Source of the DNA: Roseicyclus persicicus
Lineage (GTDB): Bacteria > Pseudomonadota > Alphaproteobacteria > Rhodobacterales > Rhodobacteraceae
Assembly (NCBI RefSeq): GCF_012395815.1
Contig: NZ_JAAZQQ010000001.1
Location: 62,001 to 126,000, forward strand
Direction of reading: 5' to 3'
DNA length: 64,000 nt
Part shown: positions 16,191-59,505 of the stretch, one piece after another
Position numbering within the stretch: the first letter of the stretch is position 1
How the letters are laid out: each line of letters starts with the position of its first letter
Translations under genes and position numbers: made by a program
Notes under the pieces: generated by a model
What the model saw: only the letters and a program-made list of their open reading frames with translations
Told to the model about the DNA's origin: nothing
Database searches by the model: none

Positions 16191-17029
16191 GGTTCTTCGC
16201 CCCCGCCAAGGTCAACCTCGCGCTGCACGTCACCGGGCGCCGCGCCGACGGCTACCACCTGCTCGACTCCCTCGTCGTCTTCGCCGGGGCCGGCGACTGG
16301 ATCGACCTGCACCCCTCCGACGCCCTGTCGCTGACCGTGACCGGCCCGCGCGCCGCCGGCGTGCCGGTCGACCGGCGCAACCTGATCTGGCGCGCGGCCG
16401 AGCTGTTCCCGGCCGGGCAGGGGGCGGCGATCACGCTGGACAAGCACCTGCCCGCCGCGGGCGGCATCGGCGGCGGCTCGGCCGACGCGGCGGCCGCGCT
16501 GCGGGGGCTGGCCGCGCTCTGGGGCAGGCCGCTGCCGGGGCCCGACGCGGTGCTGTCGCTCGGGGCGGACGTGCCGGTCTGCCTGTTCGGCCGCCCCGCG
16601 CGCATGTCGGGCATCGGCGAGATGCTGGCCCCCCTGCCGCCCCTGCCGCCCGCCTGGCTGGTGCTGGTCAACCCGGGCGTCGAGGTGCCGACGGGCCCGG
16701 TGTTCAAGGCACTGGCCACGCCGGACAACCCACCGCTTCCCGACCTGCCCGCCGCGGGCTGGCCCGACGTGGCGGCGCTGGCCGGCTGGCTCGCTGCCGC
16801 GCGGAACGACCTCGAGGCGCCGGCGCGGGGGCTGGTGCCCGTGATCGGCACGCTGATCGACGCGCTGGCGGGGCAGCCGGGCTGCCGGCTGGCCCGGATG
16901 TCGGGGTCGGGGGGCACCTGTTTCGGGCTGTTCGCAGACGCCGCATCCGCCCGCGCCGCCGCCGCGCAGCTTGCCGCGGCCGAGCCCGGCTGGTGGGTCC
17001 ACGCCGCCGAAATTCTGCAACCGGACTGA
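16187..17029 (+). CDS. ispE: 4-diphosphocytidyl-2-C-methyl-D-erythritol kinase
   Basis: IspE phosphorylates CDP-methylerythritol in the MEP route to isoprenoid precursors. The 280-residue GHMP kinase has the N-terminal [21 protein letters not shown], the ATP loop [12 protein letters not shown] (89-100) and the C-terminal [12 protein letters not shown] motif. The start is GTG 16187, overlapping the TPR gene's stop by 4 bases. A polyprenyl diphosphate synthase, which uses the pathway's products, lies directly downstream on the other strand. The stop codon is inside the first palindrome of array A. Confidence 0.95.
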
Positions 17030-17077
17030 AATTCTTCTAGAAGAATTTCAGCTTCCAAAATCTTCTAGAAGATTTTG
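17026..17077. repeat. Palindrome array A (two units)
   Basis: Two perfect palindromes fill the convergent gap between ispE and the polyprenyl synthase gene. Unit 1 (17026-17051) is 26 bp and contains the ispE stop codon. Unit 2 (17056-17077) is 22 bp. Both share the core TCTTCTAGAAGA but have different outer arms. Centres are 28 bp apart. As RNA each would be a long A/U-rich hairpin, and unit 2 ends in UUUU, so bidirectional termination is plausible. Confidence 0.8.
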
Positions 17078-27262: not shown

Positions 27263-27351
27263 GGGAAAACTGCAGTTTTCCCACCCGCGAAGCTGCAGCT
27301 TCGCGCCCGTTTTCCTCGAGGAAAACGCCGCGGAAAACGCGCGTTTTCCGC
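27263..27351. repeat. Palindrome array B (four units)
   Basis: Four perfect palindromes fill the convergent gap: GGGAAAACTGCAGTTTTCCC (27263-27282), CGCGAAGCTGCAGCTTCGCG (27286-27305), CGTTTTCCTCGAGGAAAACG (27308-27327) and a 22-mer centred on CGCGCG (27330-27351). Centres are 23, 22 and 23 bp apart. Two units share CTGCAG; the other cores differ, yet length and spacing are kept. The first unit contains the 18-mer found at 12576. Confidence 0.85.
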
Positions 27352-49027: not shown

Positions 49028-51211
49028 GTGACCGCCACCTTCGAGCATGTCCGCCCCTCGGCCTGCCCGGCCTGCAACGCCGCCCCCGCGGCCGAGCACC
49101 TGGCCGAGCTGCCCCGGGACGCGACGCTGATGCTGTCCTTGCCGGGCATCCACTGCGCGGGCTGCATCTCGGGGGTGGAAAAGGCGCTGGCGGCGGTGCC
49201 GGGGGTGCGCGAGGCGCGGGTGAACCTGACGCTGCGCCGCGCCGCGGTGCAGGCCGGGCCCGAGGTGACCGCCGAGGCGCTGGCCGAGGTGCTGGAGCGC
49301 GCGGGCTACGAGGCGCACGAGCTCGACCCCGGCGTGCTGGCCACCACCGAGGCCGACCGGCAGGGCCGCGACCTGCTGATGCGGCTGGCCGTGGCCTTCT
49401 TCGCGATGATGAACGTCATGCTCCTGTCGGTGGCGGTCTGGTCCGGCGCCGAGGGCGTGACGCGCGACATGATGCACTGGATCAGCGCGGCCATCGCGAT
49501 CCCGGCGGTGATCTTCGCCGCGCGGCCCTTCTACGTCTCGGCCTGGGGCGCGCTCCGGGCCTGGCGGATCAACATGGACGTGCCGATCACCACGGCGATG
49601 CTGCTGGCGCTCGGCACCTCGCTCTACGAGACCGCGCTGTCGGGGCACCATGCCTATTTCGACGCGGCGGTGATGCTGTGCTTCTTCCTGCTCGGCGGGC
49701 GCTACCTCGACCACCGCACCCGCAGTGCGGCGCGGTCGGCGGCGCGGGAACTGGCCGCGCTGGAAGTGCCGCGCGCGACGCTCCTGACCGAGGCGGGCGA
49801 GCGCGTCGTCGTGGCCGCCGAACTGGCGCCCGGCGACGTGGTGATGGTGCGGCCCGGCGGGCGCATCCCGGTCGACGGGGTGGTCCGCGGCGGCCAGTCC
49901 GAGCTCGACCGCTCGCTGATGACCGGCGAGAGCCTGCCGGCCTTTGCCGGGCCGGGCACCGAGGTCAGCGCGGGCGAGGTCAACCTGACCGGCCCCCTGA
50001 CCGTCGAGGTGCGCGCCGCGGGCCGCGACACCGCCCTGCACCGGATCGCCGACCTCGTCGCCGTCGCCGAGGCGGGGCGCGCGAACTACAGCGTCCGGGC
50101 CGACACCGCGGCGAAGATGTACGGGCCCGGCATCCACGTGCTGGCCGCGGCGGCCGCCGTCGGCTGGTGGATGCACACGCAGGACATGCGGCTGGCCTTC
50201 AACATCGCGGCGGCGGTCCTGATCATCACCTGCCCCTGCGCCCTGGCGCTGGCTGTGCCCGCCGTGACCACCGCCGCCTCCGGGCGGCTGTTCCGCCGCG
50301 GGCTCCTGATCAAGAACGGCACCGCGCTGGAGCGGCTGGCCGAGGTCGACACCGTGGTGTTCGACAAGACCGGCACGCTGACCACCGGCACGCCCGAACC
50401 CGTGGCGCTGGAGGCCCAGCCCGAGGCCGAGATGCGGGTGGCGCTGGCGCTGGCCGAGGCGTCCTCGCACCCGCTGGCCGTCGCGCTGGCCCGCGGGCTG
50501 CGGGCGCGCGGGCTTCGGCCGGCGCGGGTGGAGGAGATCGCCGAGGTGCCGGGCTTCGGCATCGAGGGGCGCTGGCGCGACCAGCCGGTGCGGCTGGGCC
50601 GCGCGGCCTGGGTCGGGGCCGAGGCGCCGGACGTGACCGCCACCTTCCTGCGCATCGGGACGGGCGCGCCGCGCGCGCTGACCTTCACCGACACGCTGCG
50701 CGAGGGCGCGGCCGAGACGGTGGCGGCGCTGGTCGCGGCGGGCAAGCGGGTGATCCTGATCTCGGGCGACTCGCAAGGCGCGGTCGACCGCTTCGCCGCC
50801 CGCATCGGCATCGCCGAGGTGGTGGCCGAGGCGCTGCCCGAGGACAAGGTTGCGCGCGTGGCCGCGCTGGCCGCCGACGGCGCCAAGGTGCTCATGGTGG
50901 GCGACGGGCTGAACGACACCGCGGCGCTGGCGGCGGCGCATGTGTCGATCTCGCCGGCCTCGGCGCTGGACGCCGCGCGGACGGCGTCCGATATGGTCCT
51001 GATGGGCCGGTCGCTGGCGCCGATTTCGGAGGCCTGCGTGACCGCGACGGTGGCGGCCAAGCGCATCCGCGAGAATTTCGGCATCGCGGCGGCCTACAAC
51101 ATCCTGGCCGTGCCGCTGGCGGTGGCGGGCCTGTGCTCGCCGCTGATCGCGGCGCTGGCGATGTCGACCTCGTCGATCACCGTGTCCCTCAACGCCCTGA
51201 GACTGAAGTGA
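49028..51211 (+). CDS. ccoI: Copper-exporting P-type ATPase CcoI
   Basis: CcoI (FixI) is the P1B-type ATPase that delivers copper to the cbb3 oxidase. The 727-residue protein starts at GTG 49028. It has an N-terminal Cys pair (ACPACNAA), one heavy-metal-associated domain (GIHCAGCISG), eight membrane segments with TCPCALALAVPA in the sixth, then DKTGTLTTGT, and GDGLNDTAAL. The extra N-terminal cysteines are typical of FixI. Third gene of ccoGHIS. Confidence 0.96.
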   Translation: MTATFEHVRPSACPACNAAPAAEHLAELPRDATLMLSLPGIHCAGCISGVEKALAAVPGVREARVNLTLRRAAVQAGPEVTAEALAEVLERAGYEAHELDPGVLATTEADRQGRDLLMRLAVAFFAMMNVMLLSVAVWSGAEGVTRDMMHWISAAIAIPAVIFAARPFYVSAWGALRAWRINMDVPITTAMLLALGTSLYETALSGHHAYFDAAVMLCFFLLGGRYLDHRTRSAARSAARELAALEVPRATLLTEAGERVVVAAELAPGDVVMVRPGGRIPVDGVVRGGQSELDRSLMTGESLPAFAGPGTEVSAGEVNLTGPLTVEVRAAGRDTALHRIADLVAVAEAGRANYSVRADTAAKMYGPGIHVLAAAAAVGWWMHTQDMRLAFNIAAAVLIITCPCALALAVPAVTTAASGRLFRRGLLIKNGTALERLAEVDTVVFDKTGTLTTGTPEPVALEAQPEAEMRVALALAEASSHPLAVALARGLRARGLRPARVEEIAEVPGFGIEGRWRDQPVRLGRAAWVGAEAPDVTATFLRIGTGAPRALTFTDTLREGAAETVAALVAAGKRVILISGDSQGAVDRFAARIGIAEVVAEALPEDKVARVAALAADGAKVLMVGDGLNDTAALAAAHVSISPASALDAARTASDMVLMGRSLAPISEACVTATVAAKRIRENFGIAAAYNILAVPLAVAGLCSPLIAALAMSTSSITVSLNALRLK

Positions 51212-51218
51212 GACCGCG

Positions 51219-51377
51219 ATGGACATTCTCGGCCTGCTGATCCCGGTCAGCCTCGGCATGGGCCTCGCGGGGCTCGTGGCCTTCTGGTGGATGCTGCGCA
51301 AGGGGCAGTTCGACGACCCCGACGGCGACGCCCACCGCATCCTGCGCGACGATTACGACGACAAGCCCAAGGAGTGA
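51219..51377 (+). CDS. ccoS: cbb3 oxidase maturation protein CcoS
   Basis: This 52-residue protein begins MDILGLLIPVSLGMGLAGLV, one membrane helix, then the FWWMLRKGQFDDPDGDAHR signature of CcoS/FixS. It is needed for cofactor insertion into the oxidase. Seven bases separate it from ccoI, and array C starts seven bases after its stop. Confidence 0.94.
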   Translation: MDILGLLIPVSLGMGLAGLVAFWWMLRKGQFDDPDGDAHRILRDDYDDKPKE

Positions 51378-51383
51378 GGGCGC

Positions 51384-51471
51384 CAGCGCCTTGCAAGGCG
51401 CTGCGCCAGAGCCTTGCAAGGCTCTGGCCGCCTCTTGCAAGAGGCGGGCAAGGGTCTTGCAAGACCCTTGC
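51384..51471. repeat. Palindrome array C (four units)
   Basis: Four perfect palindromes fill the convergent gap between ccoS and the EamA gene: 51384-51403 (20 bp), 51405-51428 (24), 51428-51447 (20) and 51448-51471 (24). All share CTTGCAAG but arms differ (GGCGC, GGCTC, AGGCG, ACCCT). Centres are 23, 21 and 22 bp apart. The last contains AAGGGTCTTGCAAGACCCTT, also the core of the last unit of array D. Confidence 0.88.
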
Positions 51472-51482
51472 GCCGCGGCCCG

Positions 51483-52361
51483 TCAGGCGCGCCCCTTTTC
51501 CTTGGCGCGGGCGCGCAGGAGCGTGAACACGCCGGCCGCCACCACCAGCGCCGCGCCGAGCGCCACGTTCCATTCCAGCCGCTCGCCGAACACCGTGATC
51601 CCCAGCGTCGCGGCGAAGACCAGCTGCAGGTAGGCGAAGGGCTGCACCGCGCTGGCCTCGGCCACGTCGTAGGTCTTGATCAGGAGCCAGTGCCCCAGCG
51701 CCCCGGTCACGCACAGGAGCGCCATCCACCCCCAGTCCGGGCCGGTCATCGGTTCCCAGAACCAGACGCCGACGGCCGTCATCACCACGCAGCCCACGGT
51801 GCCGGTGTAGAAGAAGCTGACCGTCGTGGTATCCTTGCGCGCCGCGTAGCGGGTCAGGAGCCCGTAGAGCGCGAACATGAAGGCCGCCGCCAGCGGCACC
51901 AGCGCCTCGGGCTGGAACACCCGCACCCCCGGCTGCAGGATGATGAGCACCCCCACGAAGCCGATCCCGATTGCCGTCCAGCGCCGCCAGCCGACCTTTT
52001 CGCCCAGGATCGGGCCCGAGAGCGCCGCCACCAGCAGCGGGTAGGAGGTGAAGACCGCGTGGCTTTCGACGAGGCCCAGCAGCACGAAGGCCAGCACCAT
52101 CACGCAGATCTCGGTCGCCAGCAGCACGCCGCGCGTCACCTGCACCCAGGGCTGCGAGGTGGCCGCCGCGGCGCGCAGACCGCCCGCGCTGCGCGCGGCC
52201 ATCGCGATGACGAAGGCAGCGAAGAACCAGTAGCGGATCATCACCACCATCAGCACGTTGTATTCGCCCGCCAGGTGCCGGCTGATCCCGTCCTGCATGG
52301 CGAAGACGAAGGTGGTGGCGACCATCAGCCAGATGCCGAGCCGCGTGTTCTGCGCGCTCAT
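51483..52361 (-). CDS. EamA/DMT-family transporter
   Basis: This 292-residue protein has ten membrane segments in two EamA repeats. It starts MSAQNTRLGIWLMVATTFVFAMQDGISRHL, with GEKVGWRRWTAIGIGFVGVLIILQPG-like sequence in the middle and FGERLEWNVALGAALVVAAGV near the end (landmarks only). Members export metabolites or amino acids; substrate is unknown. Its ATG overlaps the mnmD stop by four bases, so the two are transcribed together, a pairing without obvious functional link. Confidence 0.85.
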   Translation of the reverse strand: MSAQNTRLGIWLMVATTFVFAMQDGISRHLAGEYNVLMVVMIRYWFFAAFVIAMAARSAGGLRAAAATSQPWVQVTRGVLLATEICVMVLAFVLLGLVESHAVFTSYPLLVAALSGPILGEKVGWRRWTAIGIGFVGVLIILQPGVRVFQPEALVPLAAAFMFALYGLLTRYAARKDTTTVSFFYTGTVGCVVMTAVGVWFWEPMTGPDWGWMALLCVTGALGHWLLIKTYDVAEASAVQPFAYLQLVFAATLGITVFGERLEWNVALGAALVVAAGVFTLLRARAKEKGRA

Positions 52362-59435: not shown

Positions 59436-59505
59436 GGGCAAGCGTCTTGCAAGACGCTTGCCCCGATCTTGCAAGATCGGCGGAAGGGTCTTGCAAGACC
59501 CTTCC
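59436..59505. repeat. Palindrome array D (three units)
   Basis: Three perfect palindromes lie between the leuC and MFS stops: 59436-59463 (28 bp), 59463-59480 (18, CCGATCTTGCAAGATCGG) and 59482-59505 (24). All share TCTTGCAAGA. Centres (59449.5, 59471.5, 59493.5) are exactly 22 bp apart. The third contains the same 20-mer as the last unit of array C. Confidence 0.88.

Follow-up and report, generated by a model that had tools for sequence, protein, structure and literature searches.

What kind of element is a string of four tandem palindromes that fills the gap between two convergent genes? In Roseicyclus persicicus (genome G000, 3.71 Mb), such a string lies at positions 51384-51471 of the window, by which we mean the whole stretch of 64,000 nucleotides analysed here, between ccoS and an EamA-family transporter gene (Table 1). 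Its four perfect palindromes (20, 24, 20 and 24 bp) have the core CTTGCAAG in common, their arms are all unlike but self-complementary, their centres are 23, 21 and 22 bp apart, and base 51428 belongs to both units 2 and 3. In unit lengths, core, arms and spacing, the array is as described in the original prediction, which was made from the letters and put forward three candidates: a multi-hairpin terminator for convergent genes, a cruciform, and a phased platform for a nucleoid protein. As RNA, the array has a minimum-energy fold of -76.3 kcal/mol (z -6.1), in which units 1 and 2 pair together and four separate hairpins are not kept. None of 17 Rfam matches at 51000-51800 (E up to 5) reaches the gathering score, and no intrinsic terminator is predicted over 51200-51700.

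Table 1. Palindrome units of the array, flanking genes and a second array, in window coordinates.
Feature	Position	Strand	Remarks
Hairpin unit 1, CAGCGC-CTTGCAAG-GCGCTG	51384..51403		Perfect palindrome, 20 bp
Hairpin unit 2, GCCAGAGC-CTTGCAAG-GCTCTGGC	51405..51428		Palindrome, 24 bp; arm type commonest in the family
Hairpin unit 3, CCGCCT-CTTGCAAG-AGGCGG	51428..51447		Perfect palindrome, 20 bp
Hairpin unit 4, GCAAGGGT-CTTGCAAG-ACCCTTGC	51448..51471		Palindrome, 24 bp
ccoI-type cation P-type ATPase	49028..51211	+	Pfam E1-E2_ATPase and HMA; anchor for locating the orthologous junction
ccoS/fixS gene	51219..51377	+	Pfam FixS, 3.3e-22; self-trained gene caller; stop codon 6 bp ahead of the array
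EamA-family transporter gene, convergent	51483..52361	-	Pfam EamA, 4.3e-21; stop codon 11 bp past the array
Second family I array (palindromes of 28, 18 and 24 bp)	59436..59505		Occupies the 79-bp gap between convergent genes, aconitase-family (+) and MFS (-)

The array is one of many. The pattern CTTGCAAG-N8..22-CTTGCAAG has 70 matches in the 3.71 Mb of G000, while the reversed control pattern has none, and among the matches listed all CTTGCAAG pairs have a pitch of 20-23, though 16-30 was permitted. A scan that ignores the core, in which an array is defined as at least two perfect palindromes of at least 16 bp each with centres no more than 40 bp apart, finds 13 arrays in 400 kb of contig C1, whereas five simulations with a first-order Markov model give 0, 0, 0, 0 and 1. 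The idea that such arrays exceed what random sequence would produce, raised with the original prediction, thus withstands the comparison. In the same 400 kb, a loop-tolerant hairpin scan recovers 10 chains of at least three hairpins, with none in one second-order Markov control.

Two families can be distinguished in the 400 kb of G000: family I has the CTTGCAAG core and a pitch of mostly 22, and family II is GGAAAACTGCAGTTTTCC-like with a pitch of mostly 23. Palindrome pairs centred on TCTAGA or CGTACG are also present in this genome, at pitches of 28 and 29 bp. Within the window, positions 27263-27351 hold four family II palindromes between convergent genes (centres CTGCAG, CTGCAG, CTCGAG and CGCGCG; pitch 22-23), where arms are swapped between some neighbours (GGAAAAC / GTTTTCC), an arrangement that would permit pairing between units. 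Two TTCTAGAA palindromes (26 and 22 bp) with a 28-bp pitch are found at 17026-17077, at a gene end between convergent genes. Outside the window, we observe a second type of double hairpin near gene ends (L024:2580-2625, L034:16917-16964 and L036:9187-9237), in which a TCGCC..GGCGA-type hairpin adjoins a GCGAGGGG..CCCCTCGC-type hairpin and one side has a conserved neighbour close to CCGGAGTATTTGGAAAGCAAAGAT.

For family I, we collected 56 arrays: 22 from G000, 33 from records of five named relatives and a single one from G004, an organism that may duplicate one of the five. From identical array positions and sequence, G011 is labelled Amp-Y-6 and G003 is labelled HKCCSP123. As called, 36/56 arrays had four units; when seven weak, core-less outer units added by automatic extension are dropped, four units are found in 42 arrays, three in 11, five in 2 and two in 1. 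The pitch across the 56 arrays is 22 (100 cases), 23 (48), 21 (7), 20 (1) or 24 (1), and the consensus of the half unit is mostly CAAG-R-N-N-C-T-K-S. Pairs at arm positions 5-9 of the 211 TGCA-centred units are Watson-Crick in 1049/1055 cases, a percentage that is biased upward: the seed for a unit was TTGCAA with 8/9 pairs or more, and both core and pairing are thus partly a choice of data. A check free of this near-palindrome seeding comes from the TTGCAA hexamers in the 400 kb (n=27): the 19 that lie within 26 bp of another are all paired at 6/6 flanking positions (19/19), whereas the 8 that stand alone pair at just 0-2 of 6. An origin as uptake sequences was rejected, with just these 8/27 lying outside clusters. 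Adjacent units are separated by 0-9 nt in 155/155 cases and, because only 0-2 unpaired bases intervene in 133/155, the pitch is the unit length. The original reading of the pitch as two DNA turns, with all units on the same face of the helix, has the spacing figures right; the rest of it is arithmetic only, with pitch equal to unit length and pitches elsewhere of 28 and 29 bp (other G000 arrays) and of 21.5, 24 and 25 bp (G017, another genus).

The differing arms raise the question of what is being preserved. We aligned the arrays that have four TGCA cores and pitches of 22-23 (33 of the 56, with 32 distinct), a set that the window's own array with its pitch of 23-21-22 falls outside. Here, 96.7% of 1088 cells are paired, compared to 68.3% in shuffles and at most 52% in slid structures. 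Altered on both sides are 310 cells, in contrast to 8 altered on one side, and 36 cells are unpaired; shuffles yield a mean of 87 both-side changes and slid structures at most 67. At the window's own locus, unit 1 differs from the orthologous unit of G003, G004 and G011 by one compensated pair change, and unit 3 differs from its congeners by two. Thirteen groups of arrays have homologous flanking genes, and 22 array comparisons at such shared-flank sites give 732 unchanged pair positions, 44 double changes with pairing kept and 7 one-sided changes. The 310 both-side against 8 one-side changes support the view that selection acts on pairing and not on one fixed sequence, as was originally suggested.

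The kinds of change can also be compared to those in terminators. Distinct unit comparisons in which something changed number 18 and contain 28 double changes: 19 are AU<->GC, 5 are AU<->CG and 4 are flips, with some perhaps being one event counted twice; AU<->GC makes up 14/18 once two units with five changes each are removed. In the available excerpt of PMC5381666, the AU<->GC share in Bacillus cereus intrinsic terminators is 79%, and the double-change spectrum of the arrays is terminator-like. One-sided changes at orthologous units (five rows, four distinct changes) are all of the G-U/A-C type. Both of those behind minus-strand genes (L151 and L160, the latter with an uncalled left neighbour) are G-U on the message strand, with n=2. 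Template switching, as described in the excerpt of PMC8794818, is not needed as an explanation, because every one-sided change is of the G-U/A-C type and ordinary terminators have a similar change spectrum. Two further ideas were set aside. One is that arrays actively avoid carrying the same arm twice, which would fit the single duplicate seen in G000 versus 5.5 expected (P 0.016), but this low count is confounded because arrays share their unit order by descent. An outer stem closing the array finds no backing in the flank-flank duplex energy, which is no better than that of permuted flanks (z +1.45 in the 56 arrays and z -0.19 in 12 pairs from other genera).

With respect to genes, the arrays have a marked preference for gene ends. 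In 800 kb of G000, 32 arrays (families I and II and the two other types pooled, with genes from a self-trained caller and not from a published annotation) comprise 17 in convergent, 15 in codirectional and none in divergent gaps, against a baseline of 59 convergent and 114 divergent among 416 gaps of at least 60 bp in the same sequence. The chance of zero divergent arrays is 3.5e-5 and that of so many convergent ones 2.5e-7; for the 14 arrays of the content-unselected subset (8 convergent, 6 codirectional, 0 divergent), the corresponding values are 0.011 and 2.2e-4. The median distance in G000 is 6 bp to a stop codon (n=49, -5 to 165) and 51 bp to a start codon (n=15, 10 to 111). The 56 collected family I arrays include 27 convergent, 19 codirectional and 2 divergent cases and 8 with an uncalled neighbour, where the gene context from the caller is unreliable for three UBA8790 arrays. 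The two divergent cases (L121 and L127) represent one orthologous site, at which a coding-like ORF missed by the gene caller ends 6-7 bp from the array; we reject the divergent scoring but leave both in the tally. A U-tract (5 T in 8 nt) is found at just 1/80 array ends, and the arrays are therefore not classical intrinsic terminators. The multi-hairpin terminator for convergent genes is the best of the three candidates first proposed, given gene-end sites that are most often convergent.

We therefore favour, with a probability of roughly 0.58, a reading in which the array is a REP-like element, a dispersed string of some four hairpins, that serves as a putative bidirectional 3'-end cluster, in termination and/or as a nuclease barrier, without a U-tract. 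The element typically consists of four head-to-tail hairpins of ~22 nt each, with a stem of ~9 bp and almost no spacer, in which the CTTGCAAG core would give a UGCA loop and the mid-arms vary but stay complementary. Retained directly after stop codons, it would be transcribed, and RNA from either strand would fold into a stable hairpin cluster at the 3' end of the message. Such a cluster could stop or pause RNA polymerase, block 3'-to-5' exonucleases, or both, and because the element is palindromic, it could serve both members of a convergent gene pair. Transcription of the element and its action on polymerase or nucleases are inferred. The features common across families, species and loops are the ~9 bp stem, the tandem layout and the site right after stops, with which a role at RNA 3' ends fits, for both strands in the case of convergent genes. 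Against the 3'-end reading stands the fact that 70 CTTGCAAG pairs cover just a small fraction of the 3' ends in a 3.7-Mb genome. The near absence of U-tracts (1/80 ends), together with a lowest-energy fold that merges units 1 and 2, also argues against a simple terminator.

The CTTGCAAG pair pattern has a patchy distribution, being present in 5/13 genomes of the genus: 70 pairs in G000, 37 each in G003, G004 and G011, 2 in G001 and 0 in the other eight. In a CcoI tree of 12 genomes without a fixed root, G001 and G000 are sisters, and G003, G004 and G011 form a separate clade. Because arms are common to orthologous junctions, loss of arrays in some lineages is likely. In relatives, an orthologous junction either retains the array with compensated changes, has one hairpin of unrelated sequence, or lacks both. 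At the ccoS junction, which we examined in 12/13 genomes, 4 have an array, 4 a single unrelated hairpin (by eye), 1 a 16-bp tandem repeat and 3 near-abutting stops. The tandem repeat, GGGGCCCAAGTCCTGA in G005 (L066), duplicates the gene end including the stop codon. At the aconitase/MFS junction, the neighbour is kept in 10/13 genomes, as judged from the conserved end of the next gene. Here, G000 has its array, while 6 of the 9 other genomes have one hairpin (fold z -1.5 to -6.0), which is perfect in G001, G007 and G010 and imperfect, read by eye, in G002, G008 and G009. The function at array junctions is dispensable, because no hairpin is found in 3/10 genomes at the aconitase/MFS junction, which have a 13-22-bp gap and include G003 (with arrays elsewhere), and in 4/12 at the ccoS junction.

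G001, for which two of three loci were read, has one array with CTTGCAAG-like units throughout and another, with a pitch of 21-22, that mixes CTTGCAAG with the centres GCAA, TTTCGAAA and TTCAAA. It also has two family II chains bearing non-palindromic loops. The presence of non-palindromic centres beside CTTGCAAG in one array indicates that the common factor is stem pairing and not the palindromic core.

How the arrays came to be scattered through the genome is a separate matter. The most similar arrays in G000 (92-97%) have flanks with just 20-47% identity and occur in both orientations, and the arm types GGCG and GCTY are adjacent in 18/18 arrays that hold both. Because near-identical copies have unlike flanks, either orientation and a recurring arm order, the array is, as judged by comparing its copies, a discrete dispersed repeat element. 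This qualifies the earlier claim that every pair of arms differs: the arms do differ within an array, yet not arbitrarily, as they recur in a common order in dispersed copies. High similarity between copies in unlike flanks and both orientations, together with the recurring unit order, is also what would be left by a selfish REP- or MITE-like element with no host function, spread by a mobiliser and surviving where its insertion is harmless, just after stop codons. The patchy distribution in the genus is consistent with such an element, as are the array-less junctions of 6-22 bp in relatives, which could have accepted an insertion of 70-88 bp. We nevertheless consider purely selfish spread doubtful. 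A PF01797 profile search finds a Y1 (RAYT-type) transposase in 0/13 genus genomes (the control is positive in 5/14 known genomes), and mobilisation by a RAYT is thus rejected. Moreover, arms stay complementary at orthologous sites between species with CcoI ~80% identical, which is unexpected for a decaying selfish copy, and the distance to the stop codon is tight.

Beyond the genus, family I pairs are found in 18/392 genomes, with 59 pairs in G364, 6 in G222, 4 in G098, 3 in G252 and 2 each in four more; the other ten have one match, and the reversed control gives one match in 20 genomes. We followed seven of the eight outside genomes with at least two matches (G134 was left out). Of 20 loci from these seven, 18 have two tandem CTTGCAAG palindromes with differing arms, while in the other 2, both from G098, the two CTTGCAAG are the arms of one larger palindrome. 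In G364, which belongs to another genus, the two hairpins at several of six loci (L285-L290) seem to belong to a larger dispersed repeat that has the flank gcaacctctt.ccgg in common. In G222 (L291-L295), hairpin pairs have a left flank rich in G and a right flank rich in C, e.g. GGGCGGGG / CCCGCCC, and 4/5 loci are behind a stop codon according to our own gene caller. The family II unit pattern occurs in 3/295 genomes of the family (30 in G000 and 4 in each of two more). Among stretches from 16 other genera (720 kb; 15 unselected, with G023 picked for its family II match), 4 have tandem hairpin pairs, a count without a simulated control; on checking, the pairs of G017 and G023 proved to lie at gene ends. 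In a contig-collection scan, among the 80 stretches listed of at least 101, those with arrays have Roseicyclus, Roseibacterium, Rhodobacterales and Rhodobacteraceae bacterium in their record titles.

More distant matches are of another sort. Many contigs of the Bacteroidaceae MAG Horse_feces99 (L112, L114, L118 and L123) have CTTGCAAG at a 22-bp pitch with arms that are partly palindromic (GGAGTT/AACTCC), and CTTGCAAGTT...GCGCAAAAC recurs with much the same pitch in some records from Prevotella. All this may be an unrelated periodic repeat. We excluded Bacteroidaceae and other distant matches from all counts, as the 19 inspected have arms that are just partly palindromic or are plain tandem repeats.

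The recurrence of the CTTGCAAG core, in other genera too, suggests selection beyond pairing. A speculative extension of the 3'-end reading, to which we give little weight, is that the arrays belong to a Rhodobacteraceae-wide class of U-tract-free, strand-symmetric 3'-end elements, in which the CTTNNAAG head is conserved, the arms are free and a dedicated RNA- or DNA-binding trans-factor does the reading. If true, this would explain both the cross-genus core and why entire lineages, G001 and the eight congeners lacking the CTTGCAAG pair pattern among them, are nearly or fully without it.

A palindromic core that recurs across genera and a pitch of 22-23 bp in most arrays would also suit a platform on double-stranded DNA, on which a dimeric protein occupies palindromes at a spacing of two turns, compacting or insulating the DNA. 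The phased platform of the original prediction is not supported, and we regard it as improbable. Arm positions 5-8 vary yet remain complementary, a feature not required of a dimer site; the pitch differs between families, being 28-29 bp in other G000 arrays and 21.5-25 in G017; the loops of sister arrays are not always palindromic; and 0/32 arrays lie in divergent gaps, with most adjoining stop codons. Coupled arms, junction hairpins in relatives and non-palindromic loops thus favour hairpins over a phased protein platform. Least probable is a cruciform or other supercoil-absorbing DNA structure between convergent genes, which would profit from perfect inverted repeats, strand-symmetric pairing and 17/32 convergent arrays, but faces 15/32 arrays between codirectional genes, arms of just ~9-14 bp, two one-sided changes in codirectional arrays that are G-U on the message strand (a very small sample), and the positive supercoiling between converging polymerases, which disfavours cruciform extrusion.

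If the arrays are 3'-end clusters, they bear on a matter that, to our knowledge, is not settled: how transcripts end without U-tracts in GC-rich alphaproteobacteria, especially between tightly packed convergent genes. One genome offers dozens of natural replicates, and orthologous sites have an array, a single hairpin or nothing, so that it is directly testable how much the number and the sequence of hairpins matter for 3'-end formation. The arrays are also a repeat family with turnover of sequence but kept base pairing, in genomes that yielded no REP-type transposase.

The arrays are a new form of an already known kind, that of REP-like or hairpin-cluster 3' elements. V- and X-shaped terminators comprise hairpins in tandem or a hairpin common to two convergent genes; unlike these geometric classes, the arrays form a repeat family. 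No named element of such a kind was found among the papers listed in literature searches, as judged from titles and abstract openings, and the excerpted text of PMC2267715 has no mention of Rhodobacter.

Closest in position are the clusters of hairpins near stop codons, lacking a U-tract, that were proposed as terminators by Gupta and Pal (2021, PMC8355165, in excerpt). Like these, the arrays have at least two adjacent hairpins soon after the stop codon and do not need a U-tract; adjacent hairpins in the clusters are <15 nt apart, and in the arrays the spacers are 0-9 nt in 155/155 cases with the stop at a median of 6 bp. In the clusters, according to the same excerpt, two hairpins are the most frequent number, clusters become exponentially rarer as the hairpin count rises, and there is no sequence conservation near the stop codon, whereas the arrays are regular, with about four units of fixed length, a shared core, dispersed copies and near-perfect Watson-Crick pairing.

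REP/BIME elements of the GTAG and CGTC super-families are, in the available parts of PMC3733652 and PMC2817692, extragenic palindromes of 20-40 bp downstream of convergent or codirectional genes, often clustered and bearing GTAG or CGTC tags; CGTC-type REPs have 8-9-bp stems and 4-5-nt loops, and GTAG-type REPs accompany RAYTs. The arrays are similar in size and in their extragenic downstream position, which is convergent or codirectional in 32/32 G000 arrays. They differ from REPs as so described in having no CGTC foot tag, few GTAG and no RAYT, and in being perfect palindromes, about four different ones of which follow each other head to tail. Over the 8 nt that adjoin the terminal hairpin on its outer side at 112 array ends, CGTC occurs 0, GTAG 4, GACG 6 and CTAC 0 times, and GTAG or CTAC lies near the foot of just 4/211 units.

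Finally, the arrays resemble the compensatory intrinsic terminators of PMC5381666, as far as its excerpt describes them, in that changes in the stem are compensated and mostly AU<->GC. Unlike those terminators, the arrays are a dispersed repeat family of hairpin strings.
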